From a virus, in the IMG/VR virus record IMGVR_UViG_3300028925_004122, positions 1 to 21,132 of that record: 21,132 nucleotides of DNA. One strand, given 5' to 3'. Positions 711 through 21,132 of the stretch are shown here, piece after piece (the first letter of the stretch is position 1; the number at the start of each line of letters is the position of its first letter). A program made the position numbers and the translations under genes. The notes below the pieces were generated by a model. The model did no database searches. It saw only the letters and a program-made list of their open reading frames with translations, and had not been told where the DNA came from.

Positions 711-914
711 ATGGCTTATCAAGGCCCCTTTCAGGCATACATTATGATTAATAACGCTAGTGATAACTATTGCGCTTCTTGTACCTGTGGTAATAAGACG
801 TGCCACTGTGCAGAAGAAACAACAGCTTGCCCTCAGTGTGACTGCGGGGATTGCCAATGCAAGAACATGTACAAAAGTACAGGTTGGGGCAAACCAACAG
901 TGGGAATGGAATGA
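711..914 (+). CDS. Cys-rich metallothionein-like small protein
   Basis: This first gene of the rightward operon encodes 67 residues if it starts at 711, or 56 if it starts at the in-frame ATG at 744, which has an AGG eight bases upstream; the 711 ATG has no clear ribosome site. Ten cysteines lie in 30 residues (21, 24, 26, 31, 33, 40, 43, 45, 48, 50) with one His (32), arranged CxxCxC, CxC, then CxxCxCxxCxC. Dense CxC and CxxC pairs without a hydrophobic core are the hallmark of metallothioneins, which bind Zn, Cu or Cd in metal-thiolate clusters. It lacks the spacing of one classical zinc finger. I do not know a named family for it; metal binding is inferred from the pattern. Its TGA overlaps the start of the next gene. 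Confidence 0.7.
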   Translation: MAYQGPFQAYIMINNASDNYCASCTCGNKTCHCAEETTACPQCDCGDCQCKNMYKSTGWGKPTVGME

Positions 915-1447
915 TGGCTAAATTTGGAAAACAGAAGATTACGAATGCAGGTATAGATGCTGCTGTAGCTAGGATTATTGAAGGCAATAGAAGTCCGGGT
1001 GCAGCTTTAAACTCGCTAGATAGAGACGCTAAAAAAGTGGGCGCTACTAACGCACAGCGTCGAGCAACGATTCGTATGGTGGAGAAGCGGTTTAACTCCC
1101 ATATAAAACAGGCTAAAGCGGGGTTTGATAGGGTAACTGCTGATGTTAAATCTGGCAAAGCGAACTCTCTGAAGAAGGGTCTTACTCCCGAAAAAGTTGC
1201 AGCCGTTAAAGAGAGTTTCAGTGGTGCTGTAGCTTCTGTAATGGATAATATGATGAATCCTGAACCTTCCCAAGAGGGAAAACCTTATGGGGGCAGCAAA
1301 GAGCTAGCCAAAGCCACACGCAAAGCTGTGCGATCTGGGTCTGAAGCGAAAAATTACAAAAAGCCCCAAAAGAAAGCTAGTGGCGGCAAGGTATATGCAA
1401 TGAACCGCAACATGGGTGGCCCTATTCGCAAACCCCGGATAAAATAA
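914..1447 (+). CDS. Unknown basic phage protein with C-terminal GG-V/RKP motif
   Basis: About 177 residues, not assigned to a known family. The frame is open from 851, but that start would lie deep inside the Cys-rich gene. The tandem ATGATG at 911/914 overlaps the previous TGA and has GGGA eight bases upstream of 914, so I take 914 (911 is equally possible). The product is Lys/Arg-rich and probably helical through the middle, with no membrane segment. Its last 20 residues carry GGKVYAM and GGPIRKPRIK, a version of the motif shared with three neighbours. The gene ends in a TAATG overlap with the next. Likely a minor virion or DNA-associated protein, judging only by place and charge. Confidence 0.7.
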   Translation: MAKFGKQKITNAGIDAAVARIIEGNRSPGAALNSLDRDAKKVGATNAQRRATIRMVEKRFNSHIKQAKAGFDRVTADVKSGKANSLKKGLTPEKVAAVKESFSGAVASVMDNMMNPEPSQEGKPYGGSKELAKATRKAVRSGSEAKNYKKPQKKASGGKVYAMNRNMGGPIRKPRIK

Positions 1448-1752
1448 TGCAAAAAGAATACGCGCTGGGCGGTGGAGTCCGCAAACCCAAGATGCCTACA
1501 GGCTCAGGAATGAAGCGACCTACCAAACAGGGCGCTGGAATGACTGATAAGGGTATTAAGGCTTATCGTGAGGCTAATCCCGGCTCTAAGCTAAAAGGTG
1601 CAGTTACTGGTGAAGTAAAGGCAGGAAGTAAAGCTGCGAAGAGGCGTAAGTCATACTGCGCTCGTTCTGCAGGTCAGATGAAAGACTTCCCCTCTGCGGC
1701 TAACGATCCTAACTCGCGGCTGCGTCAGGCTAGAAAAAGATGGAAATGTTAA
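1447..1752 (+). CDS. Small basic phage protein, DUF6321-like
   Basis: 101 residues. The middle and C-terminal part (TDKGIKAYREANPGSKL, then a Lys-rich linker, KAAKRRKSYCARSAGQ, DPNSRLRQARKRWKC at the end) matches a conserved small protein of marine phages that I recall as DUF6321; the number is from memory. The invariant-looking features are NPGSKL, RRKS-C-AR, DPNSR and a terminal W-x-C. Two cysteines far apart in such a basic protein could bind metal or form a disulfide. Unusually, the shared motif lies at the N-terminus here (KEYALGGGVRKPK, residues 3-15). Its ATG uses the last base of the previous TAA, and its own TAA overlaps the next ATG, so translation is coupled. Function unknown. Confidence 0.8.
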   Translation: MQKEYALGGGVRKPKMPTGSGMKRPTKQGAGMTDKGIKAYREANPGSKLKGAVTGEVKAGSKAAKRRKSYCARSAGQMKDFPSAANDPNSRLRQARKRWKC

Positions 1753-1910
1753 TGGCAACTAAAAAAATTACTCCAAAACAAAAAAAGACATTAAAAAAGC
1801 ATTCGGAACATCATACTAAAGAACACATGACTAAAATGAAAACCGCAATGAAAAAAGGTAAAACCTTTACTGCTGCGCATAAGAAAGCAAAAAAAATTGT
1901 CTCTGTATGA
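1752..1910 (+). CDS. Tiny Lys/His-rich phage protein (52 aa)
   Basis: A 52-codon frame starts with the ATG overlapping the previous TAA and ends with TGA at 1908-1910. About 20 of 52 residues are Lys, with five His and only two Glu. The order of motifs (KQKKTLKKHSEHHTKEHM, then MKKGKTFTAAHKKAKK) resembles a widespread tiny protein of phages with the pattern KHS-x-HH-x-x-HM ... M-x-x-G-x-(S/T)-F-x-x-AH-x-x-A; this is from memory. It is predicted to be two short helices. The role is unknown; it may bind nucleic acid. Coupling at both ends supports it as a real gene. Confidence 0.75.
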   Translation: MATKKITPKQKKTLKKHSEHHTKEHMTKMKTAMKKGKTFTAAHKKAKKIVSV

Positions 1911-2202
1911 AAACATTAACAACAGAAAAAAGGCTGGCACAAGTCGGTCTAAGAGCAAATCAACGATTAGTAAGAAGGCTTATAAAAACATGCAAAAAGG
2001 TTTCCCTAAAAAAATGAATTACGGTGGCATGGCTTCTACCGGAACTCCCGACAAGGATAAGATCATGGGTGCAGCTTCTATGCAGCAAAACCCACAGCAA
2101 AGCCTCATGGAAATGAACCGCAACAAGGTTACGGGCATGATGGATGGCGGTAAGGTTAAAGAATATGCAATGGGTGGAGGCGTGCGTAAGGTACGTTACT
2201 AA
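1897..2202 (+). CDS. Small phage protein with MSLYENI start and GG-V motif
   Basis: 101 residues from a TTG start at 1897, overlapping the previous gene by 14 nt. I keep the TTG because the N-terminus it adds (SLYENINNRKKAGTSR, then STISKKAYKNM-x-x-GFP) matches a conserved start seen in marine phage proteins (recalled, not searched), and no ATG in this frame occurs before residue 32. A competing ATG at 1907 in another frame gives only 36 residues and is less likely. The C-terminus carries DGGKVKEYAMGGGVRKVRY, the fullest copy of the shared motif; a partial copy (NYGGMAS) lies near residue 43. The TAA overlaps the ATG of the small terminase gene. Function unknown. Confidence 0.7.
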   Translation: MSLYENINNRKKAGTSRSKSKSTISKKAYKNMQKGFPKKMNYGGMASTGTPDKDKIMGAASMQQNPQQSLMEMNRNKVTGMMDGGKVKEYAMGGGVRKVRY

Positions 2203-2627
2203 TGGTAAATAATCTGCTAGCCAAAAATAAGAGTAAGAAACGCGAGCTAACTGAAAAGCAGTCCGCATACTTAGACGCCCTTATGGTTAATGGGGGTAAT
2301 AACGCTGCAGCATTACGCGAAGCGGGCTATGCCATCACTAGTGGCAATGAGGTTATGAACTCTCTTGCAGATGAGATTATAGGAAGAGCTAAAAACATAC
2401 TAGCCGCTAACTCTGTAAAAGCAGCATCAGGGCTTGTAAACGCTCTGGATGATGATGGAACTACCCCCCGTGCAGAGTTAAAGATAAAGGCTGCAGAGTC
2501 TATCCTTAACAGGGTCGGTGTTGGTAAGCACGATGTAGTCGAACATAACGTAACTGCACTTCATGGAATAGTTCTTCTTCCTTCCAAAGCAGGACAGGAA
2601 GAGCCTATCATTATAAATAATGGGTAA
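2202..2627 (+). CDS. terS: Terminase small subunit (DNA-recognition)
   Basis: 141 residues. The N-terminal part LTEKQSAYLDALMVNGGNN-x-x-ALREAGYA (about 16-44) has the helix-turn-helix pattern of phage small terminases, which bind the packaging site and load the large subunit onto DNA. A helical stretch follows (60-110) ending in AAESILNRVGVGKHD, a typical oligomerisation region with the common L-N-R-x-G finish. The last 30 residues are hydrophobic and probably contact the large subunit. Length fits the family, and the large terminase lies two genes downstream. Start and stop both overlap neighbours. Confidence 0.8.
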   Translation: MVNNLLAKNKSKKRELTEKQSAYLDALMVNGGNNAAALREAGYAITSGNEVMNSLADEIIGRAKNILAANSVKAASGLVNALDDDGTTPRAELKIKAAESILNRVGVGKHDVVEHNVTALHGIVLLPSKAGQEEPIIINNG

Positions 2628-2808
2628 ATTATCTGTGGATGTTACTCTATCCCGCGTTAAGAAGCCAAATAGCTACCTGTGCTATAATACGTATCAGGGT
2701 AGGCACTATAAAAAAGTTACCATCCATGAAGAACCTGCAATTAGCGTAATGGAAGCATTTGCAATTGACAGAAAAATAATTCCCAACCAAAAAGATATGG
2801 GTACGTAA
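2620..2808 (+). CDS. Hypothetical small protein (62 aa)
   Basis: 62 residues, starting inside the last codons of the small terminase (8-nt overlap), so it depends on translational coupling. The sequence (VTLSRVKKPNSYLCYN-x-YQGRHYKKVTI) suggests a short beta-rich basic domain with one Cys and many Tyr. I do not recognise a family. The next gene begins two bases after its stop. Frame integrity, tight spacing and a plausible composition support a real gene. Confidence 0.65.
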   Translation: MGKLSVDVTLSRVKKPNSYLCYNTYQGRHYKKVTIHEEPAISVMEAFAIDRKIIPNQKDMGT

Positions 2809-2809
2809 G

Positions 2810-3475
2810 ATGTCTGATAGGCTAAAAGAAGGTGTTGAAGAATTTAGTAAAAAAACTCTTCAGGTTTTGTTTGATACCGAAGAGGGGAAAAGTCTTATGC
2901 GACGGGTTATGTTTACTGTAGATAATCCCTATGGGGGAACTGGATCGCAAGGTGAACTTCCTGTTACGGTTAGAAATACCATTGAGGCTGCTGGGGCGCT
3001 AAAAAAAGTATATAGCTTATATGAAAAGGGTCAAAACAGTAAGGTTAGTTCTGAACTGGCTACTCAAGCCCTTAAGCAAATTGCAAAAGCGGTAGAATTA
3101 AATCCCAAGTTAGAAATGGAATTTACAAGAACCATTAAAGATCCCGGTTTTACAGCGTCAGCCCCTGTTGGCGGAGGTAGGGCGGGTCTTAAAACGGCAA
3201 GTATTAAAGACCCATTAGGAAATATTAGTGGTTTTTATAGGGATGATAAAAACGAAGTTAACGCAGGATATGGGTCAGATGAAAATGCCTATGTATCGTT
3301 TAACAGGACGTTGGCGCAGGGATCAGCCGGGAGTGTATCTGCTACAATCCGCGGAAGTAAAAGGCCCGGCGATAAACCGGAAGTGTATGGAGGAATACAG
3401 GGCAAGTTGAAATTTGCAAAGGGCGGTCACGTCAAACAATATTCCAACGCACCAAGGAAACCAAAATTAAAGTAA
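2810..3475 (+). CDS. Unknown phage protein with C-terminal GG-V/RKP motif (221 aa)
   Basis: 221 residues starting MSDRLKEG. The first 110 residues look helical; the rest is glycine-rich and probably beta-structured (repeated G-x-Y/F and S-x-T patterns). The last 20 residues, FAKGGHVKQYSNAPRKPKLK, are another copy of the motif shared with the genes at 914, 1447 and 1897. No catalytic motif or membrane segment is visible. It lies directly before the large terminase and shares a TAATG junction with it. Probably a minor virion component; not recognised. Confidence 0.65.
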   Translation: MSDRLKEGVEEFSKKTLQVLFDTEEGKSLMRRVMFTVDNPYGGTGSQGELPVTVRNTIEAAGALKKVYSLYEKGQNSKVSSELATQALKQIAKAVELNPKLEMEFTRTIKDPGFTASAPVGGGRAGLKTASIKDPLGNISGFYRDDKNEVNAGYGSDENAYVSFNRTLAQGSAGSVSATIRGSKRPGDKPEVYGGIQGKLKFAKGGHVKQYSNAPRKPKLK

Positions 3476-15301: not shown

Positions 15302-15937
15302 ATGTTTATCAAGCTACTTAGCGATCAAGATATTGAATTTTGTTTAGATAATATAAACCATAAAACTTTTAATAGCGGGGATAAATCCGCACCGAACTTA
15401 GAGGATATTAAAAGCAATTCAGAGTCTATGGGTATTCCAGACTCTGTTAGAAAGTTAGTTACAAACAGACTTTATGATACTCATTATATAGACAGCGTAT
15501 ATTGTCCCACTAGAGTGTCAGTAAACTTTTATAATAAATATAGAGAAGGTGACTACTACGACTTACATGTAGATGCCTTTAAAGCCCAACCAAAATCAAA
15601 CAACATATTTTTTGACTATGGCTGGAGCATAAATTTAACGGATGACTACAAAGGCGGAGAATTTATTTTAGATACTCCAGTGGGTAGAATAGGCAAAAAG
15701 CTAGATGCGGGTGAAGCCGTAATATTTCCTATTATATATCCACATGGAGTAGAGAAACTTACTGAGGGTCTTAGACAAAATATTATCGGTTGGATGTCTT
15801 CTAACGTATCATATGAACAATCTTTTATTTTGAAAAACATGTATGAAGTAAATCAGTATCTTATGAGTACACAAAAAAGCATGTTTACAAAATCAACACT
15901 TGTTCAGACGTATTTAAAGAAGGCTTGGGGAAAGTAA
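15302..15937 (+). CDS. 2-oxoglutarate/Fe(II)-dependent dioxygenase
   Basis: 211 residues with the double-stranded beta-helix signature. The iron ligands are H89-x-D91 (DLHVDAF) and H148 (IYPHGVEKL). R158 (GLRQNIIGW), ten residues after the distal His, is the expected 2-oxoglutarate-binding arginine. The segment FDYGWSINLTDDYKGGEF is typical of the prolyl-hydroxylase/PKHD branch. Such enzymes hydroxylate protein side chains or other substrates using oxygen; the substrate here is unknown and could be a virion protein, given the place between capsid and tail genes. It has its own GGAGGT site just before the ATG, follows a terminator, and is more AT-rich than its neighbours, all consistent with an inserted accessory gene. 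Confidence 0.88.
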   Translation: MFIKLLSDQDIEFCLDNINHKTFNSGDKSAPNLEDIKSNSESMGIPDSVRKLVTNRLYDTHYIDSVYCPTRVSVNFYNKYREGDYYDLHVDAFKAQPKSNNIFFDYGWSINLTDDYKGGEFILDTPVGRIGKKLDAGEAVIFPIIYPHGVEKLTEGLRQNIIGWMSSNVSYEQSFILKNMYEVNQYLMSTQKSMFTKSTLVQTYLKKAWGK

Positions 15938-17975: not shown

Positions 17976-19504
17976 TGCCAGTTCAAGCGTTTCCTATTAA
18001 CTGTGATGGCGGGTTAGTTCTCGACAAAAGTGTGTTCGTTGCAAAGCCGGGAGAGGCTAGCATCCTGCAAAACTATGAGCCGTCCGTTACAGGTGGGTAT
18101 TCTAAAATAAAAGGTTTTATTAAGTACGATAGCAATCAAGTTACAGGTTCTGGTGGAATACTGGGAGTAGCTATCTGGAACAATAAGGTAATAGCTGCTA
18201 GAGGCGCTAACGTAATGCACAGCGTTGGAAGTGGTTGGACCTCAATCACTACAGCCCGTTCCAGTGCGGAACGCTATACCTTTGCCGTTTATAACTGGAC
18301 AGGCACTGAAAAGATTGTGATGGCAGATGGGGTTAATGATGCAGCTACGTATGATGGCAGCACGTACTTAGCCCTCACTGGAGGAGCGGGAGCGGGTGCT
18401 GGTACAAAGCCCACAGCCCCTGAAATTGTTGTAGAGCATAAAAATCACCTATTCTATTCTGGCATGACCAATAATAGACATTTAGTTCAATTTTGTGCGC
18501 CGTATAACGAGAATGATTTTAGCGCCGCATCAGGTGCGGGACAGATATCTGTAGGCGATGAGATTGTGGGAATGGCACAGTTTCGCGAAACCTTGGTTAT
18601 ATTTTGTAAAGACAGTATTTACAGGTTAGCGGGTTCAAGCGTAGCGGATTTCGTTCTTCAACCTGTTACAAGAAATATAGGATGTTCATCCCGTTTTAGT
18701 ATTCAAGAAATAGGCGGTGATCTTATATACCTTTCTCCTGATGGACTAAGAACTGTTGCCGGTACAGAAAAAATTGGCGATACAGAGCTTGGAACAATTT
18801 CTAAACAGGTTCAATCAAGATTAAATGGTCTTTCTGCAGATCAAATTTCAAATGTGTCTTCTCATATAGTGAGGAGAAAAAGCCAGTATAGAATGTACTT
18901 CCCAACAACTTCTAGTATTGAATCTGCCTCAACAGGCTTAATGGCCGTTTTAAAACGCTCTGCAGAGAACGGACAGGTTGGCTGGGAGTATGCAGATATT
19001 AAAGGGGTTAAACCTATGTGTGCAACGCATGGTGATATCTCTAATAGTGAACATGTTTTACATGGCGACTATGATGGGGGCTACGTATATCAACAAGAAC
19101 AGGGCGGCACATTTGATGGTACTAATTTAGCTGCTATTTATAGGACCATAGATTACAACATGGGCGATGTGGGCATTAGGAAAAATATGCAGAGAGTAGT
19201 TATAAACTACTTAGGTACAGGAACGGTGGCGTCTGTAGATATGAATCTTGAGTATGATTACGGAGACCTTCTCTTGCCTAGCCCTGCCCTGTACAATCTT
19301 TTAGACCCTGAAGGATCAGCATTTTATGGCAGTGCTATACTGAATACAGCAAAGTATGATGCTGCTGTTTACACACCCCTGTATAGACAATCTGTAGAGG
19401 GATCTGGTTTTGCCGTAGCGCTAAAGTTTACAGACACAAGTACTAACCCTAGTTATACGTTAAAAGGGTTTTCACTAGAATTTACACCGGGAGCTAGAAT
19501 GTAA
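17975..19504 (+). CDS. Tail hub / DNA stabilisation protein (P22 gp10-like)
   Basis: 509 residues. The opening FPINCDGGLVLDKSVF, then KPGEASILQNYEPSVTGGY, is the typical start of the gp10-like family, whose members plug the tail below the adaptor and keep DNA inside. The body is a run of beta-propeller-like repeats (KNHLFYSGM, VGMAQFRETLVIFCKDSIYRL, GGDLIYLSPDGLRTV). The gene is coupled by TAATG at both ends, between adaptor and fibre, the expected order. Length matches the family (about 470-550). Confident in the class, less in whether it corresponds to P22 gp10 or T7 gp12. Confidence 0.8.
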   Translation: MPVQAFPINCDGGLVLDKSVFVAKPGEASILQNYEPSVTGGYSKIKGFIKYDSNQVTGSGGILGVAIWNNKVIAARGANVMHSVGSGWTSITTARSSAERYTFAVYNWTGTEKIVMADGVNDAATYDGSTYLALTGGAGAGAGTKPTAPEIVVEHKNHLFYSGMTNNRHLVQFCAPYNENDFSAASGAGQISVGDEIVGMAQFRETLVIFCKDSIYRLAGSSVADFVLQPVTRNIGCSSRFSIQEIGGDLIYLSPDGLRTVAGTEKIGDTELGTISKQVQSRLNGLSADQISNVSSHIVRRKSQYRMYFPTTSSIESASTGLMAVLKRSAENGQVGWEYADIKGVKPMCATHGDISNSEHVLHGDYDGGYVYQQEQGGTFDGTNLAAIYRTIDYNMGDVGIRKNMQRVVINYLGTGTVASVDMNLEYDYGDLLLPSPALYNLLDPEGSAFYGSAILNTAKYDAAVYTPLYRQSVEGSGFAVALKFTDTSTNPSYTLKGFSLEFTPGARM

Positions 19505-21132
19505 TGGGTACAGCGTATATAAAAACAAGCCCAACTAATTTTGTAGATGGGGAGACTATTCAATCATCTGACTTTACTACTGAGTTTGATGCTATTGATG
19601 CAACTTTTGAAACGGGCGGTCATCAACATGACGGCACAGATGGTGAAGGAGGGGCTATTGAAAAGCTCCTAAGTAATGGTATCACTTTTGGTACTGGTGC
19701 AGATACCGACATTGCTGTAACCTTTAATGCTAACACAGCAGATGGTGTTTTGACATGGATGGAAGATGAAGACTACTTCCAGTTCTCTGATGATCTCCTT
19801 TTAACCACTACAGAAAAGGTCCAGTTTCGTGATACTGCAATCTACATTAACTCTAGTACAAATGGACAGCTTGATCTTGTAGCCGATACTGAAATTCAGA
19901 TTGCAGCTACTACAGTTGATATTAATGGCGCTGTTAACATTTCGGGTATTGCCACGCATGGTGCTGCTATCGTCTCAGATACAGATAGTACAGATGATCT
20001 CGGTACAACGGGCGTTCGTTGGGCTAACCTATTTGTAGACGCAATCACAGCCACTGACCAGATTACAGCTACGGGCTTTACTGGTACGCTAGATGGTATT
20101 CTTGGTAGCGGCGCTGCTGCTGCTGCAACTGTAACAACTCTTACCACCAGCGGCATTGCTTCTATTGATGACACCACCGATACCACATCCGGCACAACGG
20201 GCAGTATACACACTGATGGCGGCGTTGGTATTGCAGCAGCTCTTTTTGTTGGCACTACATCAAAGTTAGTTGGCGTTACCACGCATGGCGGTAATGTAGT
20301 TTCTGACACTGACAGCACAGACGATCTCGGCACAACTGGTGTCAGGTGGGCCAATCTATTTGTTGATGCTATAACCGCTACTGACCAGATTACAGCTACA
20401 GGTTTTACAGGAACCTTAGACGGCATCTTAGGGTCGGGTGCGGCAGCGGCGGCGACAGTAACGACGTTAGTAACAAGTGGGATTGTGTCGGTTGACGACA
20501 CTACGACATCCACGTCAGGAACAACGGGTTCAATCCATACAGATGGCGGACTTGGCGTAGCCGGAACTTCTACATTAATAGGTGTCACGACTCATGGCGG
20601 TAACGTCGTCTCGGACACCGACAGCACGGATGACCTTGGAACTACAGGTGTTCGGTGGGCTAATCTGTTTGTTGACGCTATTACTGCCACAGATCAGATT
20701 ACAGCTACAGGCTTTACTGGCACCTTGGACGGCATATTGGGGTCTGGCGCTCCTGCGGCTGCAACTGTTACTCAGCTAACTTCCGGTGGTGTAATTGTTA
20801 GTGATACAGACAGTACAGACGATCTTGGAACTACAGGTGTTCGGTGGGCTAACTTGTTTGTTGATGCAATTACAGCCACGGATCAAATCACAGCTACAGG
20901 TTTCACCGGAACTCTGGACGGCATTTTAGGCTCTGGCGCTCCTGCTGCTGCAACGGTTACTCAACTAACCTCGGGTGGCGTGATTGTTAGTGACACTGAT
21001 AGTACAGATGATCTAGGCACAACTGGCGTTAGATGGGCTAACCTGTTCGTAGATGCCATTACTGCTACTGACCAGATTACAGCTACAGGCTTCACCGGCA
21101 CCCTCGACGGAATACTTGGCTCTGGTGCGGCT
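19504..21132 (+). CDS. Tail fibre protein with tandem repeats, incomplete at right edge
   Basis: The frame is open from ATG 19504 to the last base (543 codons), so the C-terminus is missing. It starts on the last base of the hub TAA. The N-terminus has GGHQHDGTDGEGGAIEKL (about 39-56), a tail-attachment feature common in phage fibres. Residues 90-150 are beta-strand rich. From residue 158 come five copies of a 46-residue block with DLGTTGVRWANLFVDA, a repeat type common in fibres of marine phages that probably forms a trimeric beta shaft. The host-binding tip lies outside the window. All five blocks are identical in protein but not in DNA. Confidence 0.88.
   Translation, partial: MGTAYIKTSPTNFVDGETIQSSDFTTEFDAIDATFETGGHQHDGTDGEGGAIEKLLSNGITFGTGADTDIAVTFNANTADGVLTWMEDEDYFQFSDDLLLTTTEKVQFRDTAIYINSSTNGQLDLVADTEIQIAATTVDINGAVNISGIATHGAAIVSDTDSTDDLGTTGVRWANLFVDAITATDQITATGFTGTLDGILGSGAAAAATVTTLTTSGIASIDDTTDTTSGTTGSIHTDGGVGIAAALFVGTTSKLVGVTTHGGNVVSDTDSTDDLGTTGVRWANLFVDAITATDQITATGFTGTLDGILGSGAAAAATVTTLVTSGIVSVDDTTTSTSGTTGSIHTDGGLGVAGTSTLIGVTTHGGNVVSDTDSTDDLGTTGVRWANLFVDAITATDQITATGFTGTLDGILGSGAPAAATVTQLTSGGVIVSDTDSTDDLGTTGVRWANLFVDAITATDQITATGFTGTLDGILGSGAPAAATVTQLTSGGVIVSDTDSTDDLGTTGVRWANLFVDAITATDQITATGFTGTLDGILGSGAA
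19975..21126 (+). repeat. Five fibre repeat cores with identical protein
   Basis: Cores of 138 bp (46 codons) lie at 19975-20112, 20302-20439, 20611-20748, 20800-20937 and 20989-21126. Each encodes SDTDSTDDLGTTGVRW and the same 30 residues after it. Start-to-start distances are 327, 309, 189 and 189 bp. The first two copies carry a longer linker with a DDTT ... SGTTGSIHTDGG module; the others have a short linker (GAPAAATVTQLTSGGVIV). Cores 1 and 2 differ in 32 of 46 codons, cores 3 and 4 in 24, all synonymous. Confidence 0.95.

Follow-up and report, generated by a model that had tools for sequence, protein, structure and literature searches.

Protein-identical, codon-divergent repeats in a putative marine phage tail fibre, read as old and exchangeable modules

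Tandem repeats that share a protein sequence while differing in their codons have their classical case in polyubiquitin, where the passages of PMC10457151 that treat the birth-and-death view of Nei et al. 2000 explain the synonymous differences between units by strong purifying selection. Polyubiquitin repeats within a species are also closer to each other than to those of other species, the mark of concerted evolution (PMC10457151). Among phage fibres, T4 gp34 and gp12 carry a short repeated domain in a trimeric shaft, reused in different fibre proteins, whose repeats vary in sequence and loop length (PMC5537660). In their survey of protein repeats, Persi, Wolf and Koonin found that copies within proteins show accelerated, relaxed divergence (PMC5120217). 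A literature search for natural codon scrambling of repeats found no paper.

The gene and its five cores

The window analysed here is a whole viral record of 21,132 bases, and its last gene, which carries five repeats, runs to the end of the contig (Table 1). The gene order is terminase, portal, major head protein, tail protein and then this gene, a position in the structural cluster that fits a tail fibre. The best matches of the terminase are HTVC115P, HTVC103P, the CRP phages and HMO-2011, at 47-55% identity; judged by its terminase, the phage is of the HMO-2011 type, a marine group that includes phages of Pelagibacter, Roseobacter and Puniceispirillum. Similarity to known fibres was found at both ends of the gene product. 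A putative structural protein of HTVC115P has 62% identity to the N-terminal 145 amino acids, and the C-terminal domain, with its sequence taken from L006, a second contig of the same phage, was modelled at pLDDT 85 and matches predicted phage proteins, several of them named tail fibre, with E values down to 1e-10. The repeat region gave a poor AlphaFold2 model (pLDDT 61, pTM 0.23), and a shaft role for it is suggested by its position, its repetition and the analogy with the gp34 and gp12 repeats of T4 (PMC5537660). The Pfam family ABC_trans_N was rejected as an annotation of the fibre (19504-21132), as no single stretch is significant; weak repeated matches sum to a score above the Pfam cut-off, and are a likely source of wrong automatic annotation.

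Table 1. Features of the putative tail-fibre gene; the five cores, of 46 residues each, lie in a single open frame, and L018, L012 and L008 are contigs of related phages.
Feature	Coordinates	Strand	Remarks
Probable tail-fibre gene	19504..21132	+	open at contig end, 543 aa here; ORF in L006 (same phage) 671 aa stop to stop
N-terminal region upstream of repeats	19504..19974	+	common to L018; weaker similarity to HTVC115P
Core copy 1	19975..20112	+	nearest DNA relative L018 copy 1, 21/138 nt
Linker 1	20113..20301	+	relative of linker 2, with amino-acid changes (pN 0.13, pS 0.83)
Core copy 2	20302..20439	+	nearest DNA relative L018 copy 2, 14/138 nt, 0 aa
Linker 2	20440..20610	+	part up to 97% DNA identity to L008
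Core copy 3	20611..20748	+	without close relative: 24/138 nt to L008 and L018 copies, 26 to copy 4
Short linker APAAATVTQLTSGGVIV	20749..20799	+	
Core copy 4	20800..20937	+	nearest DNA relatives L012 copy 3 (13 nt) and L008 copy 2 (18 nt)
Second short linker	20938..20988	+	same protein as preceding short linker, synonymous differences
Core copy 5	20989..21126	+	nearest DNA relative L008 copy 3 (10 nt, 0 aa); contig end just beyond

All five cores read SDTDSTDDLGTTGVRWANLFVDAITATDQITATGFTGTLDGILGSG, with zero amino-acid differences, while the ten core pairs differ in 24-32 codons (26-36 nt). A recount placed copies 1 and 2 at 32 codons apart and copies 3 and 4 at 24, the same figures as in the preliminary description, and the Arg CGT/AGG, Ser AGC/TCG and Leu CTT/TTA switches listed there are present. 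For copies 3-4 and 4-5 the protein identity extends to 111 residues, with 61 codon differences.

Some smaller features of the region were also recorded. The DNA of CAGATTACAGCTAC (20059-20073, core codons 28-32, and the same place in the others) is kept in four of the five copies, and in the family as a whole Thr at core position 30 is encoded by ACA with unusual constancy. An antisense open frame of 230 residues runs through the first repeats (19896-20588, - strand) and is probably a by-product of codon composition. Elsewhere in the window, several small adjoining ORFs at 851-3475 carry, close to one terminus, a motif resembling GG-x-V-(K)-x-Y-x-x-GG-x-x-RKPK (for example KEYALGGGVRKPK, KEYAMGGGVRKVRY, FAKGGHVKQYSNAPRKPKLK), as though different proteins had been given one and the same short tail. 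Between the capsid and tail genes lies a 2OG-Fe(II) oxygenase-like ORF (15302-15937; PF13640, E 2e-7), whose dN/dS against L018 is 0.076.

Constraint, saturation and copies in other phages

Pooled over the unsaturated core pairs, dN/dS is 0.056. Of six neighbouring genes compared between the window and L018, five have ratios of 0.037-0.18 and the sixth, a small gene, has 0.56, and by this measure the constraint on the core is strong but ordinary beside its neighbours. Synonymous sites between the cores have a pS of 0.73-1.01, and dS is not estimable in nine of the ten pairs. Random encodings of the core were drawn with the codon usage of the phage's own genes, five per set; they differ by about 29.2-29.3 +- 1.1 codons per pair, against a mean of 27.9 observed. 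Since the observed differences are close to random, the copies are saturated and not over-diverged. Linkers 1 and 2 have a pN of 0.13 at saturated synonymous sites, so drift does alter residues that are less constrained.

Scans of IMG/VR yielded 95 dereplicated copies of the core in 68 fibre genes, 17 of which have two or more copies; the loci were fetched by core similarity, which partly lowers their apparent amino-acid diversity. All the relatives found with a full core are uncultured metagenomic contigs. The module was not found in the cultured phages of the collection searched, a single scan of a set of genome contigs gave only six partial matches of at most 34/63 residues, and the homologous fibre of HTVC115P has neither the module nor internal repeats. 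A broader search with a divergent query recovered half-modules, which diverge freely, and intermediates, so that the apparent separation of the core from related sequences in amino-acid distance was set aside as at least partly an effect of the search.

Protein-identical pairs of cores show 24.6 synonymous codon differences when both members lie in one gene (n=22) and 23.2 when they come from different genes (n=620, median 25). When copies were shuffled among the multi-copy genes, 26.35 +- 0.63 differences were expected within a gene and 24.7 were observed (P about 0.01), and within-gene amino-acid differences were 1.21 against 1.71 shuffled (P 0.005), or 1.59 against 1.88 (P 0.09) with the gene from the window left out; the tests take the copies to be exchangeable, and their correction for shared ancestry is incomplete. 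Copies within one gene are thus slightly more alike than chance. Concerted evolution of the protein alone was rejected as an account of this, because the synonymous sites show the same trend and no special process is needed. The exact consensus is carried by 20 of the 44 copies in multi-copy genes, and five of five exact copies in one gene is favourable but not extraordinary (about 1.4% by counting, before allowing for the gene having been picked).

The nearest relative lies in another gene for 39 of the 44 copies in multi-copy genes; being closest within the own gene, as concerted evolution would have it, was seen for the other 5 of the 44 and for none of the five in the window, each of which is closest in DNA to a copy in the fibre of another phage. 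In a quick tree of the cores (138 columns), one of the 17 multi-copy genes forms a clade. This sole multi-copy clade is the fibre ORF of L385, from another uncultured phage, and it gives a second example of the same pattern: a tandem duplication at residues about 600-815 in which 127 residues are identical while 50 codons differ.

DNA identity between the fibre and that of L018 runs from about 70% to 100% over aligned intervals, with a near-identical C-terminus; it is about 100% at amino acids 599-643 and about 80% over much of the rest. Identity reaches 97% with L012 at amino acids 449-478 and 97% with L008 at amino acids 329-358, and the N-termini of L008 and L012 are unrelated to that of the window's fibre. 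In many fibres one and the same core is joined to linkers of different types in free combination, and each half of the core is also met on its own, next to other partners. On this sequence evidence the gene is mosaic, and the pattern is one of module exchange between fibres. The preliminary description had set its own reading, selection against DNA identity, against an origin of the copies in different phages by module shuffling, and that origin is largely what the nearest relatives elsewhere and the mosaic gene now indicate.

Jointly with the assignment of the product as the tail fibre of an HMO-2011-type marine phage, we consider it very probable that these are old, exchangeable fibre modules, kept by purifying selection on the protein, saturated at synonymous sites and reassorted between phages. 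The fibre shaft would be put together from a limited repertoire of exchangeable modules, namely the core of 46 residues and several alternative linkers. The comparisons show that the cores in one gene are older than the split between related phages, or of separate origin from it, and that their synonymous sites have saturated while purifying selection held the protein. Cores and linkers have been recombined among fibres with different N-termini, with no gene-wide DNA homogenisation visible. With the repeat structure poorly predicted, the reason for the amino-acid constraint is one that we infer: the core may be a repeated trimeric shaft element, in which a change in one copy would damage folding or register and hence be removed. 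The different codons would be a passive outcome of age and mixed origin.

Alternative accounts of the codon differences

It is possible, though we think it unlikely, that the arrays are what survives of a larger number, with young, DNA-identical duplicates quickly lost by recombination and lasting arrays made from diverged modules of different phages, so that DNA difference would be filtered at the level of the array instead of arising by codon selection. Movement of modules between phages is clear, and very young within-gene duplicates were not seen in the 17 multi-copy genes, where protein-identical pairs within a gene have at least 13 synonymous codon differences. However, identical repeats tend to interrupt short-read assembly, and more contigs end close to the module than expected (6 against 2.2 within 100 bp, 19 against 11 within 500 bp), so the absent young duplicates may be missing data. 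In L385, moreover, the two tandem copies with the 127-residue identical block are closer to one another than to any other copy and seem to have diverged in place. If this account were true, exchange between phages would supply repeat number without recombinational loss, and codon difference would act as a filter on the whole array.

Considerably less probable is the explanation first offered for the locus, that selection acts directly against DNA identity and so protects the repeats from being lost through recombination or slippage. The saturated synonymous sites and the minimum of 13 differences would fit it, but the divergence between the copies is no higher than random synonymous choice gives, and a comparison of copies within and between genes, of the kind proposed in the preliminary description, gave a synonymous divergence within genes that is not above that between phages. 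The longest identical DNA tracts between copies are longer than in random encodings (mean 18.0 against 12.0 +- 1.1; maximum 29 against 18.4), the reverse of what selection to avoid DNA identity predicts. Copy number also still varies among relatives, with five cores in the window, four in L018, four in L012 and three in L008. What holds of the earlier reading is that each block is very strongly constrained in its amino acids and that its DNA has not been homogenised recently; selection against DNA identity is not supported.

A chimeric contig is hardly credible. The contig does end inside the array just after copy 5, and contigs end near the module more often than expected, but the same five copies stand in L006, which is 99.92% identical over 6,522 bp, continues past the window end and includes the 3' end of the gene.

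Comparison with described repeats

If the cores are indeed old, exchangeable modules, identical protein with scrambled codons can be explained by age, purifying selection and module exchange, and special selection against recombination is unnecessary. The fibre cores resemble polyubiquitin in being identical in protein and different at synonymous sites. They differ from it in that every core in the window has its closest counterpart in another phage, and the proteins are unrelated.

The likeness to T4 gp34 and gp12 lies in a short repeated domain and in the reuse of the same kind of domain across fibres, the shaft role of the repeat in the window being the one suggested above. The T4 repeats, in contrast, vary in sequence and loop length, and a search of solved structures (PDB) with the repeat profile gave no relevant match.

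The comparison of copies within a protein with copies between relatives is shared with Persi, Wolf and Koonin, whose accelerated divergence is the opposite of what is seen in this gene, where copies show no amino-acid change. Among marine phages there is a likeness to fibre repeats of the DLGxxxxRWxxLYxD type, of which the first half of the core is a variant (DLGSSSQEWKDLYIDG and similar). The wider motif varies freely, whereas the SDTDSTDD core is a narrow, near-invariant subgroup. The copies collected here document a fibre module that is widespread among uncultured marine phages and hardly varies, unusually for a fibre protein, and a structure of it would be worthwhile.
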